64,000 nt of DNA from an uncultured Gammaproteobacteria bacterium. Lineage in GTDB: Bacteria; Pseudomonadota; Gammaproteobacteria; UBA4575. Under the pieces are notes generated by a model. The model searched no databases and was not told the DNA's origin. It was given only the letters and a program-made list of their open reading frames with translations. Each line of letters starts with the position of its first letter. Position 1 is the first letter of the stretch. Of this stretch, positions 44,167-48,395 are shown one piece after another. Where the stretch lies: positions 62,001 to 126,000 of the forward strand of contig OX638335.1 of assembly GCA_951812785.1 (NCBI GenBank), read 5' to 3'. Both the position numbers and the translations under genes were made by a program.

Positions 44167-45066
44167 TTACTTGTTAGAGGTTTTTTTTGCTCGAGGGTGG
44201 GCTTGATCATAAACCTTAGCTAAATGCTGGAAATCTAGCTGGGTATATACCTGTGTGGTGCTAATATTTGCATGCCCCAGCAATTCTTGGACAGATCTTA
44301 GATCACCGCTCGACTCCAATAAATGGCTAGCAAATGAGTGACGCAGCATATGCGGATGAAGGTGGACACCTAGCTCTGCACGTTGGGCTTGTTCACGCAA
44401 TCTTTTTTGTACGGCTCGTTGCGAAAGCCGCGATCCGCGATTGTTCACAAAAACTGCATTTTCACCAGCAAGTGCTAAATTCTTGCGCAGATCTAGCCAC
44501 GCACTCATAGCTGCCCTTGCTTGCTGGCCTATTGGTAAATATCTTGTCTTTTTACCTTTACCAAGCACTATTACCTGACCTGCTGGTAAATCTATATCCA
44601 ACAAATCCAGGTTAACCATTTCTGTTAGACGCAATCCCGATGAGTACATCAGCTCCATCATGGCGTGATCGCGCATTTCCAATGGACTGTTATGAGTGCC
44701 ACTTAGCAGGCGATCAACTTGGTCCACATCTAACACCTTAGGTAGTTTCTTAGCTCCTTTGGGTGCGCGCACATCTGCGGCAGGATTGGTTCCGATTTGA
44801 TTATTTTTTAATAGGTGCTTATAAAAACCGCGCAATGATGATAGCAGCCGCTGCATGCTACTTTCTGCCATGCCTTTTCTATGACAACTGGAGATATAAG
44901 CCCGAATATCTTGGATACTAGCTTCAGCAATATCGTTGATTTCTTGCGCAGATATAAATCCAAAGAATCCTTGAATATCGCGTTGATAAGCTTCCAGGGT
45001 CGCAGGAGAGTAATGCTTAATAGTGCGAAGATAATTTAAGTACTCTTGTAAAGACTGGCTAAGCAT
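44167..45066 (-). CDS. xerC: tyrosine recombinase XerC
   Basis: Site-specific recombinase that resolves chromosome dimers at dif with XerD. The 299 residues carry the catalytic set: R146 in SSGLRLTEM, K in GKGKKTR (about 170-173), H239 and R242 in HPHMLRHSFASH, H265 in LGHANIST, and nucleophile Y274 in TQVYTQLD. It follows the DUF484 gene, the normal gammaproteobacterial order, which supports XerC rather than XerD. It is not an integron integrase: the extra alpha-helix insert of IntI is absent. Confidence 0.95.
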   Translation of the reverse strand: MLSQSLQEYLNYLRTIKHYSPATLEAYQRDIQGFFGFISAQEINDIAEASIQDIRAYISSCHRKGMAESSMQRLLSSLRGFYKHLLKNNQIGTNPAADVRAPKGAKKLPKVLDVDQVDRLLSGTHNSPLEMRDHAMMELMYSSGLRLTEMVNLDLLDIDLPAGQVIVLGKGKKTRYLPIGQQARAAMSAWLDLRKNLALAGENAVFVNNRGSRLSQRAVQKRLREQAQRAELGVHLHPHMLRHSFASHLLESSGDLRSVQELLGHANISTTQVYTQLDFQHLAKVYDQAHPRAKKTSNK

Positions 45067-45083
45067 CTTCGCAACTATATTAA

Positions 45084-45812
45084 TTATTGTTTAAGCAACT
45101 TCTTCAACTTGCGACTAAGCAAATCAGAAAGATATTCTAAAAACAATGTTCCCATCCCCTCGTAGAAACGGTTTTCATTAGAGCTACCTAGCAGTAATAC
45201 ACCAAAATTCTTATTGGTGCGCAATAGTATAGCAACACCGGATTTAACATCGACACGCCTTACAAACAGATCAACCAGGCCCTTGCCATGCAAGAAAATG
45301 CAATCTCGGCAATTCTCTTGAATAACTTGTTTATAGAACACATGATCCAAATCAGCAGCAGTAATGTTGTTTTCTACTGGCACTGTGTATTCAGGCGCTA
45401 CACCATATAAACTTAAACGAATTTGCAATGATGGAAACTCATTGTTTAATAGGTCATTAATGATAGGAACAATATTCTTATTATGATCGATCTCAATTAA
45501 ACGACGCGCAATTCTATGCAGTTGCTCCTCAAGAACTTCATTATCCTGAGCAATTTGCACTAGATGAAGAATTTTTTTCTCTAGACTTCCATTTTTATCA
45601 CGTAGCAACTGTATTTGGCGCTCAACCAACGAGACAGCCGCGCCAGATTCATGCTTAATATCAATATCACGCAAAAGTGCGGGGTGTTGATTAAAGAATT
45701 CTGGATGCTGCAATAGGTAGTCTTTAACTGCAGATGGATCAATAAACGGCACCGCTTCACTACGTCTAGTGCTGGCATTGGCACTCGCGTGAACTTCGGT
45801 TTTAGTTGTCAT
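45084..45812 (-). CDS. DUF484 family protein
   Basis: 242-residue protein with an N-terminal helical segment (SAVKDYLLQHPEFFNQHPALL), a coiled coil near 65-110 and a GAF-like C-terminal domain (ILLRTNKNFGVLLLGSSNENRF). It sits between dapF and xerC in many gammaproteobacteria, overlapping dapF by 4 bp. Function unknown; a link to XerC has been suggested only by position. Confidence 0.9.
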   Translation of the reverse strand: MTTKTEVHASANASTRRSEAVPFIDPSAVKDYLLQHPEFFNQHPALLRDIDIKHESGAAVSLVERQIQLLRDKNGSLEKKILHLVQIAQDNEVLEEQLHRIARRLIEIDHNKNIVPIINDLLNNEFPSLQIRLSLYGVAPEYTVPVENNITAADLDHVFYKQVIQENCRDCIFLHGKGLVDLFVRRVDVKSGVAILLRTNKNFGVLLLGSSNENRFYEGMGTLFLEYLSDLLSRKLKKLLKQ

Positions 45813-46636
45813 ACGTTAACACTCCCCTCAAAACTAAACTCAGTCGGCCCTGTCATTAACAAACATCCATTTTCATTACGGTGGATTTCCAGCATTCCGC
45901 CAGGCATTGTAATCTGAACTGTGTCATCCACCCTATTTTTTTGCTGCGCAACAGCTGCTGCCGCACAAGCTCCAGAGCCACTCGCCATTGTTTCACCGAC
46001 TCCTCGTTCAAAAATTCTTTGAATAATGTTTTGTCTGTTCTTTACTTGAACAAACTGAATATTGGCACGTTTGGGAAACCGTTCATCTATTTCCAAACGA
46101 CTACCTACTTCTTGCACATCTGCCAAGTTTACGTCATCAACAAATATAACGGCATGCGGGTTTCCCATTGAAACTACTGCAAACTCTATCTGCTGACCAT
46201 TGTGCTCAAACATATAAGCATTATTTTCACTCTGCTCGCTAAATGAAATTTCCCCCACCTCAAACTCTGGCTTACCCATCTCCACGGTAACGTTGATGTT
46301 ATCGCGAACATGGAGCACAAAAATGCCTGCAAGCGTTTCAACTTTTATGACTTCTTTGTCTGTTAGACCAAGTCGCCTTACAAACTGGGCAAAACATCGT
46401 ACGCCATTTCCACACTGCTCAACTTCACTGCCGTCACTATTGAATATTCGGTAACGAAAATCAACATCTTCCTTACTAGACGATTGCGCAATTAACAGCT
46501 GATCACAACCAATTCCAAACTTTCTATGTGATAAGTCACGAATATTGTCTGTTGTTAAATTGAAATTTTGGCTAATACCGTCAAGCAAAACAAAGTCATT
46601 GCCAAGACCATGCATTTTTACAAATTTAAGTTTCAC
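45809..46636 (-). CDS. dapF: diaminopimelate epimerase, second catalytic Cys replaced by Ser
   Basis: Interconverts LL- and meso-diaminopimelate for lysine and peptidoglycan. The 275 residues are of normal length and otherwise typical: MHGLGNDFVLLD, NSDGSEVEQCGNGVRCFA with catalytic C75, and ERGVGETMASGSGACAA. The family's second catalytic cysteine lies in the motif GETxACGSGA. Here that position is Ser219 (AGT at 45982-45980), a one-base change from TGT. C224 nearby is a separate, commonly present cysteine. The rest of the pocket looks intact. A true enzyme with Ser there would be expected to racemise poorly, so this is either a sequence error or a functional change. Confidence 0.92.
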   Translation of the reverse strand: MKLKFVKMHGLGNDFVLLDGISQNFNLTTDNIRDLSHRKFGIGCDQLLIAQSSSKEDVDFRYRIFNSDGSEVEQCGNGVRCFAQFVRRLGLTDKEVIKVETLAGIFVLHVRDNINVTVEMGKPEFEVGEISFSEQSENNAYMFEHNGQQIEFAVVSMGNPHAVIFVDDVNLADVQEVGSRLEIDERFPKRANIQFVQVKNRQNIIQRIFERGVGETMASGSGACAAAAVAQQKNRVDDTVQITMPGGMLEIHRNENGCLLMTGPTEFSFEGSVNV

Positions 46637-46674: not shown

Positions 46675-47094
46675 TTATTGCTTATCAATATTATCAAGAC
46701 CCAAACAAACAATTTCTTTATAGATACATCAATCCATAATGATAGAAATTCCTGCTTGCTGGGCTTTTTTTTCTGCCTCTAAACTAATTATACCTTCTTG
46801 CAACCAAATTTTATTAATCCCCAGACTTGCACATGAGTCAACAATACCCGGCACATATTTAGGTGCACGAAAAACATTAATTAAATCCACTTCAAATGGA
46901 ATATCCTCCAGTGATTTATAAACAGCCTGGCCCAATATTGTCGTTACACCTGGACGTACCGGTATTACTGTATACGATAATCCTTGTAAGCACTTGGCAA
47001 CTCAATGGCCAGGCCTATTTTGCTTTGGAGACAATCCGACAACTGCAATAATGTTAACGCTTTGCAGCAACTTAATGATAGCTTGATCATTCAT
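46675..47094 (-). pseudogene. YccU-like CoA-binding protein with two internal TGA stops
   Basis: Reading from the ATG at 47094 through to a TAA at 46675-46677 gives 139 codons, the full length of the family (E. coli YccU, about 137). It is colinear throughout: IIAVVGLSPKQNRPGH, PVRPGVTTILG, then DLINVFRAPKYVPGIVD and KIWLQEGI. Two TGA codons interrupt it: codon 31 (47004-47002), where homologues have Gly in PSHGVA, and codon 122 (46731-46729), where they have Arg or Lys in MDRC. Each could be one substitution (GGA or CGA to TGA). The 68-codon piece from 46935 is unlikely to function alone. Confidence 0.8.
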
Positions 47095-47129
47095 CGCATA
47101 AACTCAGCATAAGTCACTTATATATGAAA

Positions 47130-48395
47130 CTAATCCGTTGGCAATAAAATCTCATTTTGCCAAAGTTCATCCAGCGCATCTCTACGTCTAATTAAGTGGG
47201 TATTCCCACCATCTATCATTAACTCACATGGCCGTTGGCGTGTATTGTAATTACTCGCCATTGTCATCGCGTATGCACCCGCAGACATCACCGCAAGTAA
47301 TTCTCCTGGCTGTAACTCTTTCATTTCGCGTTTCTTCGCGAAGAAATCACCGCTCTCACAGACTGGACCGACGATGTCGTAAACCTTATCTACTCGTTTT
47401 GCGTTGAGTGTAACAGGCAACACTGTATGCCAAGCTTGGTATAATGCGGGCCGCATCAAGTCGTTCATGGCAGCGTCCACCAACACAAATTCATTCACCT
47501 CTATATCTTTTATATATTCAACCGCAGTAACCAATATACCTGCATTGGCAACAATTGATCTTCCTGGCTCTAATACTAGTTGATAATGCTTACCTTTAAA
47601 CAGCGGTGTAATCACTTCTGCATAGTGACTAAATGCAGGAGGTTTTTCATTATCGTAGGTGATACCAAAACCACCGCCTAAATCGATATGCTTTAGCTCT
47701 ATACCCAGTTGTTCTAATTTTTCTACAAATTCAAAAACATGCTTGGCTGCCTCTACATAGGGCTGTGTTTCTGTGATCTGCGACCCAATATGACAATCAA
47801 CGCCAACCGGTCTGACCCAGGGATCGTCTTTAATTGATGTATATAACTTAAGTGCCAGCTCACTGGTAATGCCGAATTTACTTTCTTTTAAACCTGTAGA
47901 GGTATATGGATGTGTATTTGGATTCACATCAGGATTTATCCTCAGTGAAACATTCACATGCATTTTCATATCCGCTGAAATAGCACAAATACGCGTTAAT
48001 TCGTACTCAGACTCAACATTAATACAGCCGGTCTGGCAATGAATCGCCTTACGAATTTCATCTTCTCTTTTAGCGACGCCTGAGAACATCACCTTGCTCG
48101 CATCACCACCTGCTGCTAATACGCGCTCAAGCTCGCCCACTGAAACAATATCGAAACCCGCTCCCCATTGAGCTAGCATTTGCAAAATAGCAATATTGGA
48201 ATTTGCTTTAACTGCGTAACAAGGCAAAAAATCTATAGAAGAAAATGCCGTACATAATTCTACCCAACGCGAAGTCAATGCAGATTTAGAATAAATATAA
48301 AGTGGTGTTCCGTATTCCAGCGCCATACGAGGAATATCAACCTCTTCGACATATAAGTTATCTTGTCGATATTCAAAACCAGGAAATTGATTCAC
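47130..48395 (-). CDS. lysA: diaminopimelate decarboxylase
   Basis: PLP enzyme for the last step of lysine synthesis, 421 residues. The PLP lysine is K63 in PCYAVKANSN. HIDLGGGFGITY binds the cofactor phosphate, EPGRSIV follows, and GPVCESGDFFAK near 335-350 provides the catalytic Cys across the dimer. It stands between lptM and the dead CoA-binding gene, with dapF further downstream, so it belongs to the lysine/peptidoglycan group. Confidence 0.97.
   Translation of the reverse strand: MNQFPGFEYRQDNLYVEEVDIPRMALEYGTPLYIYSKSALTSRWVELCTAFSSIDFLPCYAVKANSNIAILQMLAQWGAGFDIVSVGELERVLAAGGDASKVMFSGVAKREDEIRKAIHCQTGCINVESEYELTRICAISADMKMHVNVSLRINPDVNPNTHPYTSTGLKESKFGITSELALKLYTSIKDDPWVRPVGVDCHIGSQITETQPYVEAAKHVFEFVEKLEQLGIELKHIDLGGGFGITYDNEKPPAFSHYAEVITPLFKGKHYQLVLEPGRSIVANAGILVTAVEYIKDIEVNEFVLVDAAMNDLMRPALYQAWHTVLPVTLNAKRVDKVYDIVGPVCESGDFFAKKREMKELQPGELLAVMSAGAYAMTMASNYNTRQRPCELMIDGGNTHLIRRRDALDELWQNEILLPTD

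Follow-up and report, generated by a model that had tools for sequence, protein, structure and literature searches.

A serine in place of the second catalytic cysteine defines a natural clade of gammaproteobacterial diaminopimelate epimerases

Diaminopimelate (DAP) epimerase, DapF, serves cell-wall and lysine synthesis and is conventionally defined by two catalytic cysteines, which are also regarded as the target of its covalent inhibitors. In Anabaena DapF, LL-aziDAP bonds to Cys75 and DL-aziDAP bonds to Cys224 (PMC12039745). Engineered Cys-to-Ser forms of Mt-DapF and of the homologue PddB have faint activity, below 0.1% for PddB (PMC8225329), and the same kind of mutation is used by crystallographers to arrest enzymes of this type (PMC12039745). 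Natural variants with Ser or Thr for a catalytic Cys are known in related racemases. The 4-hydroxyproline 2-epimerase B9JQV3 (Avi_0518), a member of the proline racemase superfamily, is a natural, active enzyme with a Ser/Cys pair (PMC4113996). The aspartate/glutamate racemase EcL-DER carries a natural Cys-to-Thr replacement and was reported to have one-way or asymmetric kinetics (PMC8142540). In an enzyme of related fold that lost one catalytic Cys, the reaction became a dehydration, unlike the DAP case. DAP has no beta-leaving group. For DapF itself, we found no report of a natural Ser-type enzyme in the open-access papers searched.

The dapF gene described here lies in a 64,000-nucleotide stretch of DNA from an uncultured gammaproteobacterium, referred to below as the window (Table 1). 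Its product matches the DapF equivalog model TIGR00652 over its full length (285.6 bits, cut-off 114.65), and the translation of 45809-46636 (- strand) includes the motif GVGETMASGSGACAA. An earlier sequence-only reading had noted that Ser stands at the ACGSG position while the first catalytic Cys is present. Both observations were borne out: the codon at 45982-45980 is AGT, the encoded residue aligns with position 217 of H. influenzae (Hi) DapF, and Cys75 is in place. Ser219 of the window thus aligns with Ser217 of 2q9j, the structure of the H. influenzae C217S mutant, in which the wild-type residue is Cys217. Canonical DapF (TIGR00652/PF01678; E. coli 4ijz, P. aeruginosa 8qzy, H. influenzae 1gqz) shares with the window protein its full-length sequence and fold, Cys73, the other active-site residues that were checked and the operon context. 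The window protein differs from it by Ser for Cys217 and by a cluster of further changes, at Hi 192, 194, 204, 206, 228, 234 and 242. The engineered mutant 2q9j has the same residue at the same place but lacks these other substitutions. B9JQV3 is similar in its related fold and in having Ser/Cys rather than Cys/Cys; its family and substrate differ and, as we read the numbering, its Ser is in the N-terminal domain, whereas that of the window protein is in the C-terminal domain. EcL-DER is likewise a case of one catalytic Cys naturally replaced by a hydroxyl residue, but belongs to the Asp/Glu racemase superfamily, with another fold and with Thr instead of Ser. Since one textbook feature of DapF is missing and the remaining ones that could be checked are present, the window protein is classed by homology as a DapF variant rather than among the canonical two-cysteine enzymes.

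Table 1. Features of the dapF locus (window coordinates)
Feature	Position	Strand	Remarks
xerC, downstream in the same conserved cluster	44167..45066	-	TIGR02224
DUF484-type gene, overlaps the dapF stop	45084..45812	-	
dapF, diaminopimelate epimerase	45809..46636	-	275 aa, GTG start, sole genome copy; TIGR00652 285.6 bits, single PF01678 protein
AGT codon, Ser219, in the place of H. influenzae catalytic Cys217 (ASGSGA vs ACGSGA)	45980..45982	-	
Gln206 (Hi 204)	46019..46021	-	Leu in 24/24 Cys-type, Gln in 8/8 Ser-type DapF
Gln194 (Hi 192)	46055..46057	-	Gly in 22/24 Cys-type, Gln in 8/8 Ser-type DapF
TGT codon, Cys75 (Hi Cys73), remaining catalytic Cys	46412..46414	-	
lysA, diaminopimelate decarboxylase (meso-DAP user), upstream of dapF	47130..48395	-	TIGR01048 511.7 bits

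DapF was detected in 54 of the 55 genomes searched, comprising the window's own genome and its relatives. In the window's family, the eight DapF sequences read from genera g1, g5 and g2, the window's among them, all have Ser at the position in question, encoded by AGT or AGC. The sister genera g3, g4 and g6 of this family have Cys, as do the other gammaproteobacteria that were read. In a tree computed without the Cys/Ser column, the eight Ser-type sequences formed one clade (support 100/100) and the Cys-type sequences of the family formed its sister clade (support 100/100), so that a single Cys-to-Ser change is needed. The sequence-only reading had allowed for a sequencing or assembly error and had proposed aligning DapF from relatives at this column; that alignment gives Ser in every one of the eight clade members. 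An error would take a single base, AGT for TGT, but eight separate genomes carry this serine, some as AGT and others as AGC, which refutes an error, and chance with it; the residual probability of an error is negligible. The Ser-type DapF is, on this evidence from sequence, a real natural variant fixed in the clade. Beyond the clade, the exact pattern GETxA-G[ST]GA with an AGY serine (TCN serines lie outside this pattern) was found among 369 gammaproteobacterial genomes in G000, the window's genome, and G002 only, both of the window's genus. A looser motif was matched in 278 of the 369, and among the matches listed the codon was TGY by eye. In a sample of 398 genomes from across the phylum, the AGY-Ser motif occurred in the window's own genome alone. 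Neither survey with the exact motif therefore revealed a convergent AGY-Ser DapF outside the window's genus.

The sequence-only reading had also described the rest of the protein as normal. This holds for the textbook active site: Cys73, in QCGNGxR, is present in 8/8 Ser-type and 24/24 Cys-type sequences, and Asn11, Gln44, Asn64, Asn157, Asn190, Glu208, Arg209 and Gly218 (Hi numbering) are unchanged in all eight Ser types. The substrate-contact position Ser/Thr219 in Hi numbering, which is distinct from Ser219 of the window, is also retained. Only the second Cys, within GETxACG[ST]GA, is missing, with Ser in all eight clade members. The description does not hold for the surroundings of the Ser helix, where several class-conserved positions have changed together. 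Ten positions were at least 85% conserved within each of two groups, the Cys-type gammaproteobacteria and the Ser clade, but with a different residue in each, and eight of these fall within residues 192-242 around this helix (G192Q, M194V, L204Q, V206I, C217S, G228A, L234V and L242M, Hi numbering). In contrast, when the same test was applied to the sister Cys clade, three positions were returned, all in the N-terminal domain and none in 192-242. An AlphaFold model of the window protein (pLDDT 84.4) has the two-domain DapF fold and superposes on E. coli DapF 4ijz with Z 36.9 and rmsd 1.9 over 273 residues. In the model, strands span residues 192-200 and 203-210, and a helix of residues 220-232 begins just after Ser219 (window numbering). 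We read the clustered substitutions as remodelling around Ser219, in a region that was chosen post hoc; they could instead reflect unrelated drift, as the branch is long (0.44). A relocated catalytic Cys was sought in the alignment, and no new clade-wide Cys was seen in the Ser types. Alignment columns 79 and 223 hold Cys in every DapF sequence aligned. Close to the active site, Cys-type gammaproteobacteria commonly have a Cys in GIGCDQ; this residue is Phe in three Ser-type sequences (L007, L009 and L010), as in H. influenzae, and marks a variable site rather than a replacement Cys.

NG86 estimates of dN/dS were about 0.07-0.18 and mostly ~0.1 for Ser types, with synonymous sites near saturation in the distant pairs involving L007, and about 0.07-0.09 for the Cys types of the family. 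Close Ser-type pairs gave values of about 0.08-0.13 (e.g. 0.089/0.921 and 0.076/0.949), compared with 0.071/0.903 for a Cys-type family pair. These ratios indicate that the Ser-type dapF is maintained under purifying selection about as strong as that on the Cys types. The gene order is also conserved: a lysA-like ORF lies upstream of dapF at every Ser-type locus, and the DUF484 and xerC genes come after dapF wherever the retrieved Ser-type stretch is long enough.

The two bypasses named in the sequence-only reading, a DAP dehydrogenase and a second dapF, were both searched for without success. PF01678 gives one protein in the window's genome, and ddh (PF16654) was absent from that genome and from 11 family relatives, while control genomes matched as expected. 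No proline-racemase homologue (PF05544) was found in eight family genomes. The demand for meso-DAP in wall and lysine synthesis looks unchanged, since the DNPR motif is kept in MurE (in the window's own genome, G002, G005 and G008, as well as in the Cys-type G014) and the LysA of the window is canonical (TIGR01048). The dcw cluster looks normal. From these sequences meso-DAP still appears to be required in the Ser clade. The earlier statement that it is essential needs a caveat, as E. coli dapF mutants are viable, with sacculi that have fewer cross-links (PMC8741058). Glutamate racemase (MurI, TIGR00067) was absent from eight family genomes, Cys-type members among them; weak PF01177 matches were considered as MurI candidates, and those translated were PanB. 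A Dat-like D-amino-acid transaminase was present in all eight family genomes searched (TIGR01121, 247-286 bits against a cut-off of 277) and is probably the source of D-Glu in the family.

With error excluded and the named bypasses not found, tolerance of Ser by the enzyme, which the sequence-only reading had listed among its options, is left as the best reading, here refined to an adapted Ser/Cys enzyme. The Ser-type DapF is thus probably a natural variant that functions, not an error, and we think it likely, by analogy with its homologues, that the window protein is an active, single-copy epimerase with an asymmetric Cys/Ser acid-base pair. The near-inactivity of the engineered Ser mutants (PMC8225329) counts against this. 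Their trace activity is equally what one would cite for a crippled but tolerated DapF, a small fraction of activity being enough for slow growers, with the Ser having drifted to fixation while the ancestral population was small and the other changes being unrelated. The survival of E. coli dapF mutants (PMC8741058) and the decay of a neighbouring gene in the window's genome point the same way. We nevertheless consider a crippled enzyme unlikely, given that no reversion has occurred in eight lineages of three genera although AGY to TGY is one base, that purifying selection is about equal to that on Cys types and that the co-substitutions are clustered.

Quite improbable is a loss of DAP epimerisation altogether, in which MurE would take LL-DAP, lysine would come from elsewhere and DapF would have another role. 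LL-DAP can enter E. coli peptidoglycan, going by the title of reference 73 in PMC8741058, but the substrate-contact residues that were checked are conserved in 8/8 Ser types, dapF still adjoins lysA, whose product requires meso-DAP, and MurE retains DNPR. A shade less credible again is that the Dat-like protein, found in every family genome searched, relieves DapF by D-amination of L-2-amino-6-oxopimelate directly to meso-DAP. By our own reasoning this reaction would be chemically analogous to that of ddh; we found no paper describing it for Dat, Cys-type relatives have the protein just as the Ser types do, D-Glu synthesis is already a task for it where MurI is lacking, and strong selection on DapF persists. 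That same lack of MurI, together with the PanB identity of the translated PF01177 matches and the bifunctional Chlamydia DapF (PMC5885031), could suggest that the Ser-type protein now racemises a different amino acid, such as glutamate. We give this the least weight of these readings of the protein's role: Cys-type relatives also lack MurI and D-Glu can come from the Dat-like enzyme, so that there is no call for a bifunctional DapF, and the Chlamydia activity requires both cysteines (PMC5885031). The window protein also scores 104.8 bits against the model for the Chlamydia-type bifunctional DapF/glutamate racemase (NF038284), below its cut-off of 350.

How an adapted Ser/Cys DapF might work is suggested by the aziDAP bonding of the Anabaena enzyme, which indicates that the Cys73 equivalent faces the LL proton and the Cys217 equivalent the D proton, and hence that the replaced residue is the proton donor in the biosynthetic direction. 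Cys75 thiolate would take the alpha-proton of LL-DAP, and the Ser219 hydroxyl, where the C-terminal-domain helix begins, would protonate the opposite face to give meso-DAP. Ser219 would be needed as a base in the reverse reaction only, where it is expected to be poor. We infer both the assignment of residues to isomers and the activity of the enzyme from homologues. Although an alcohol makes a poor base, it can in principle donate a proton to a carbanion, and saturation kinetics could therefore turn asymmetric. The equilibrium ratio of LL- to meso-DAP is fixed, and the Haldane relationship ties the kcat/Km of both directions to it; only the kinetics and saturation behaviour of the Ser enzyme, not the equilibrium, can be asymmetric. 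The Cys-to-Ser change would go back to a single event in the common ancestor of three or more genera. The strands and helix around residue 219 would have been remodelled with it, and purifying selection would have preserved the change since. The further proposal that the Ser lineage is remodelled, efficient and strongly asymmetric in its kinetics, so that a thiol/thiolate pair is not obligatory in the DapF family, is a tentative one, to which we give not far short of even probability. A Ser/Cys DapF that is maintained as the only copy would demonstrate that nature can break the Cys pair, and would offer a ready system in which to study how protons at an amino-acid alpha-carbon are moved by a weak acid/base, with the accompanying substitutions of the Ser clade as candidates. 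It also predicts a lineage whose DapF is not alkylated by DL-aziDAP at position 217.

Signs of gene decay were seen near dapF and elsewhere in the window's genome. A decayed gene of ~140 aa, CoA-binding-like by eye, lies between lysA and dapF (46678-47103, - strand). It is intact in relatives, with 75% identity to the copy at L033. In the window two TGA codons interrupt its frame, at 47002-47004 and 46729-46731; L033 has Arg at both places. Outside the window, a Mur-ligase-like gene, perhaps mpl, is seemingly split over two frames at G000:C1:845767-846317 (L099), which adds to the signs of decay; a complete Mur-ligase match in G002 may be the same gene.
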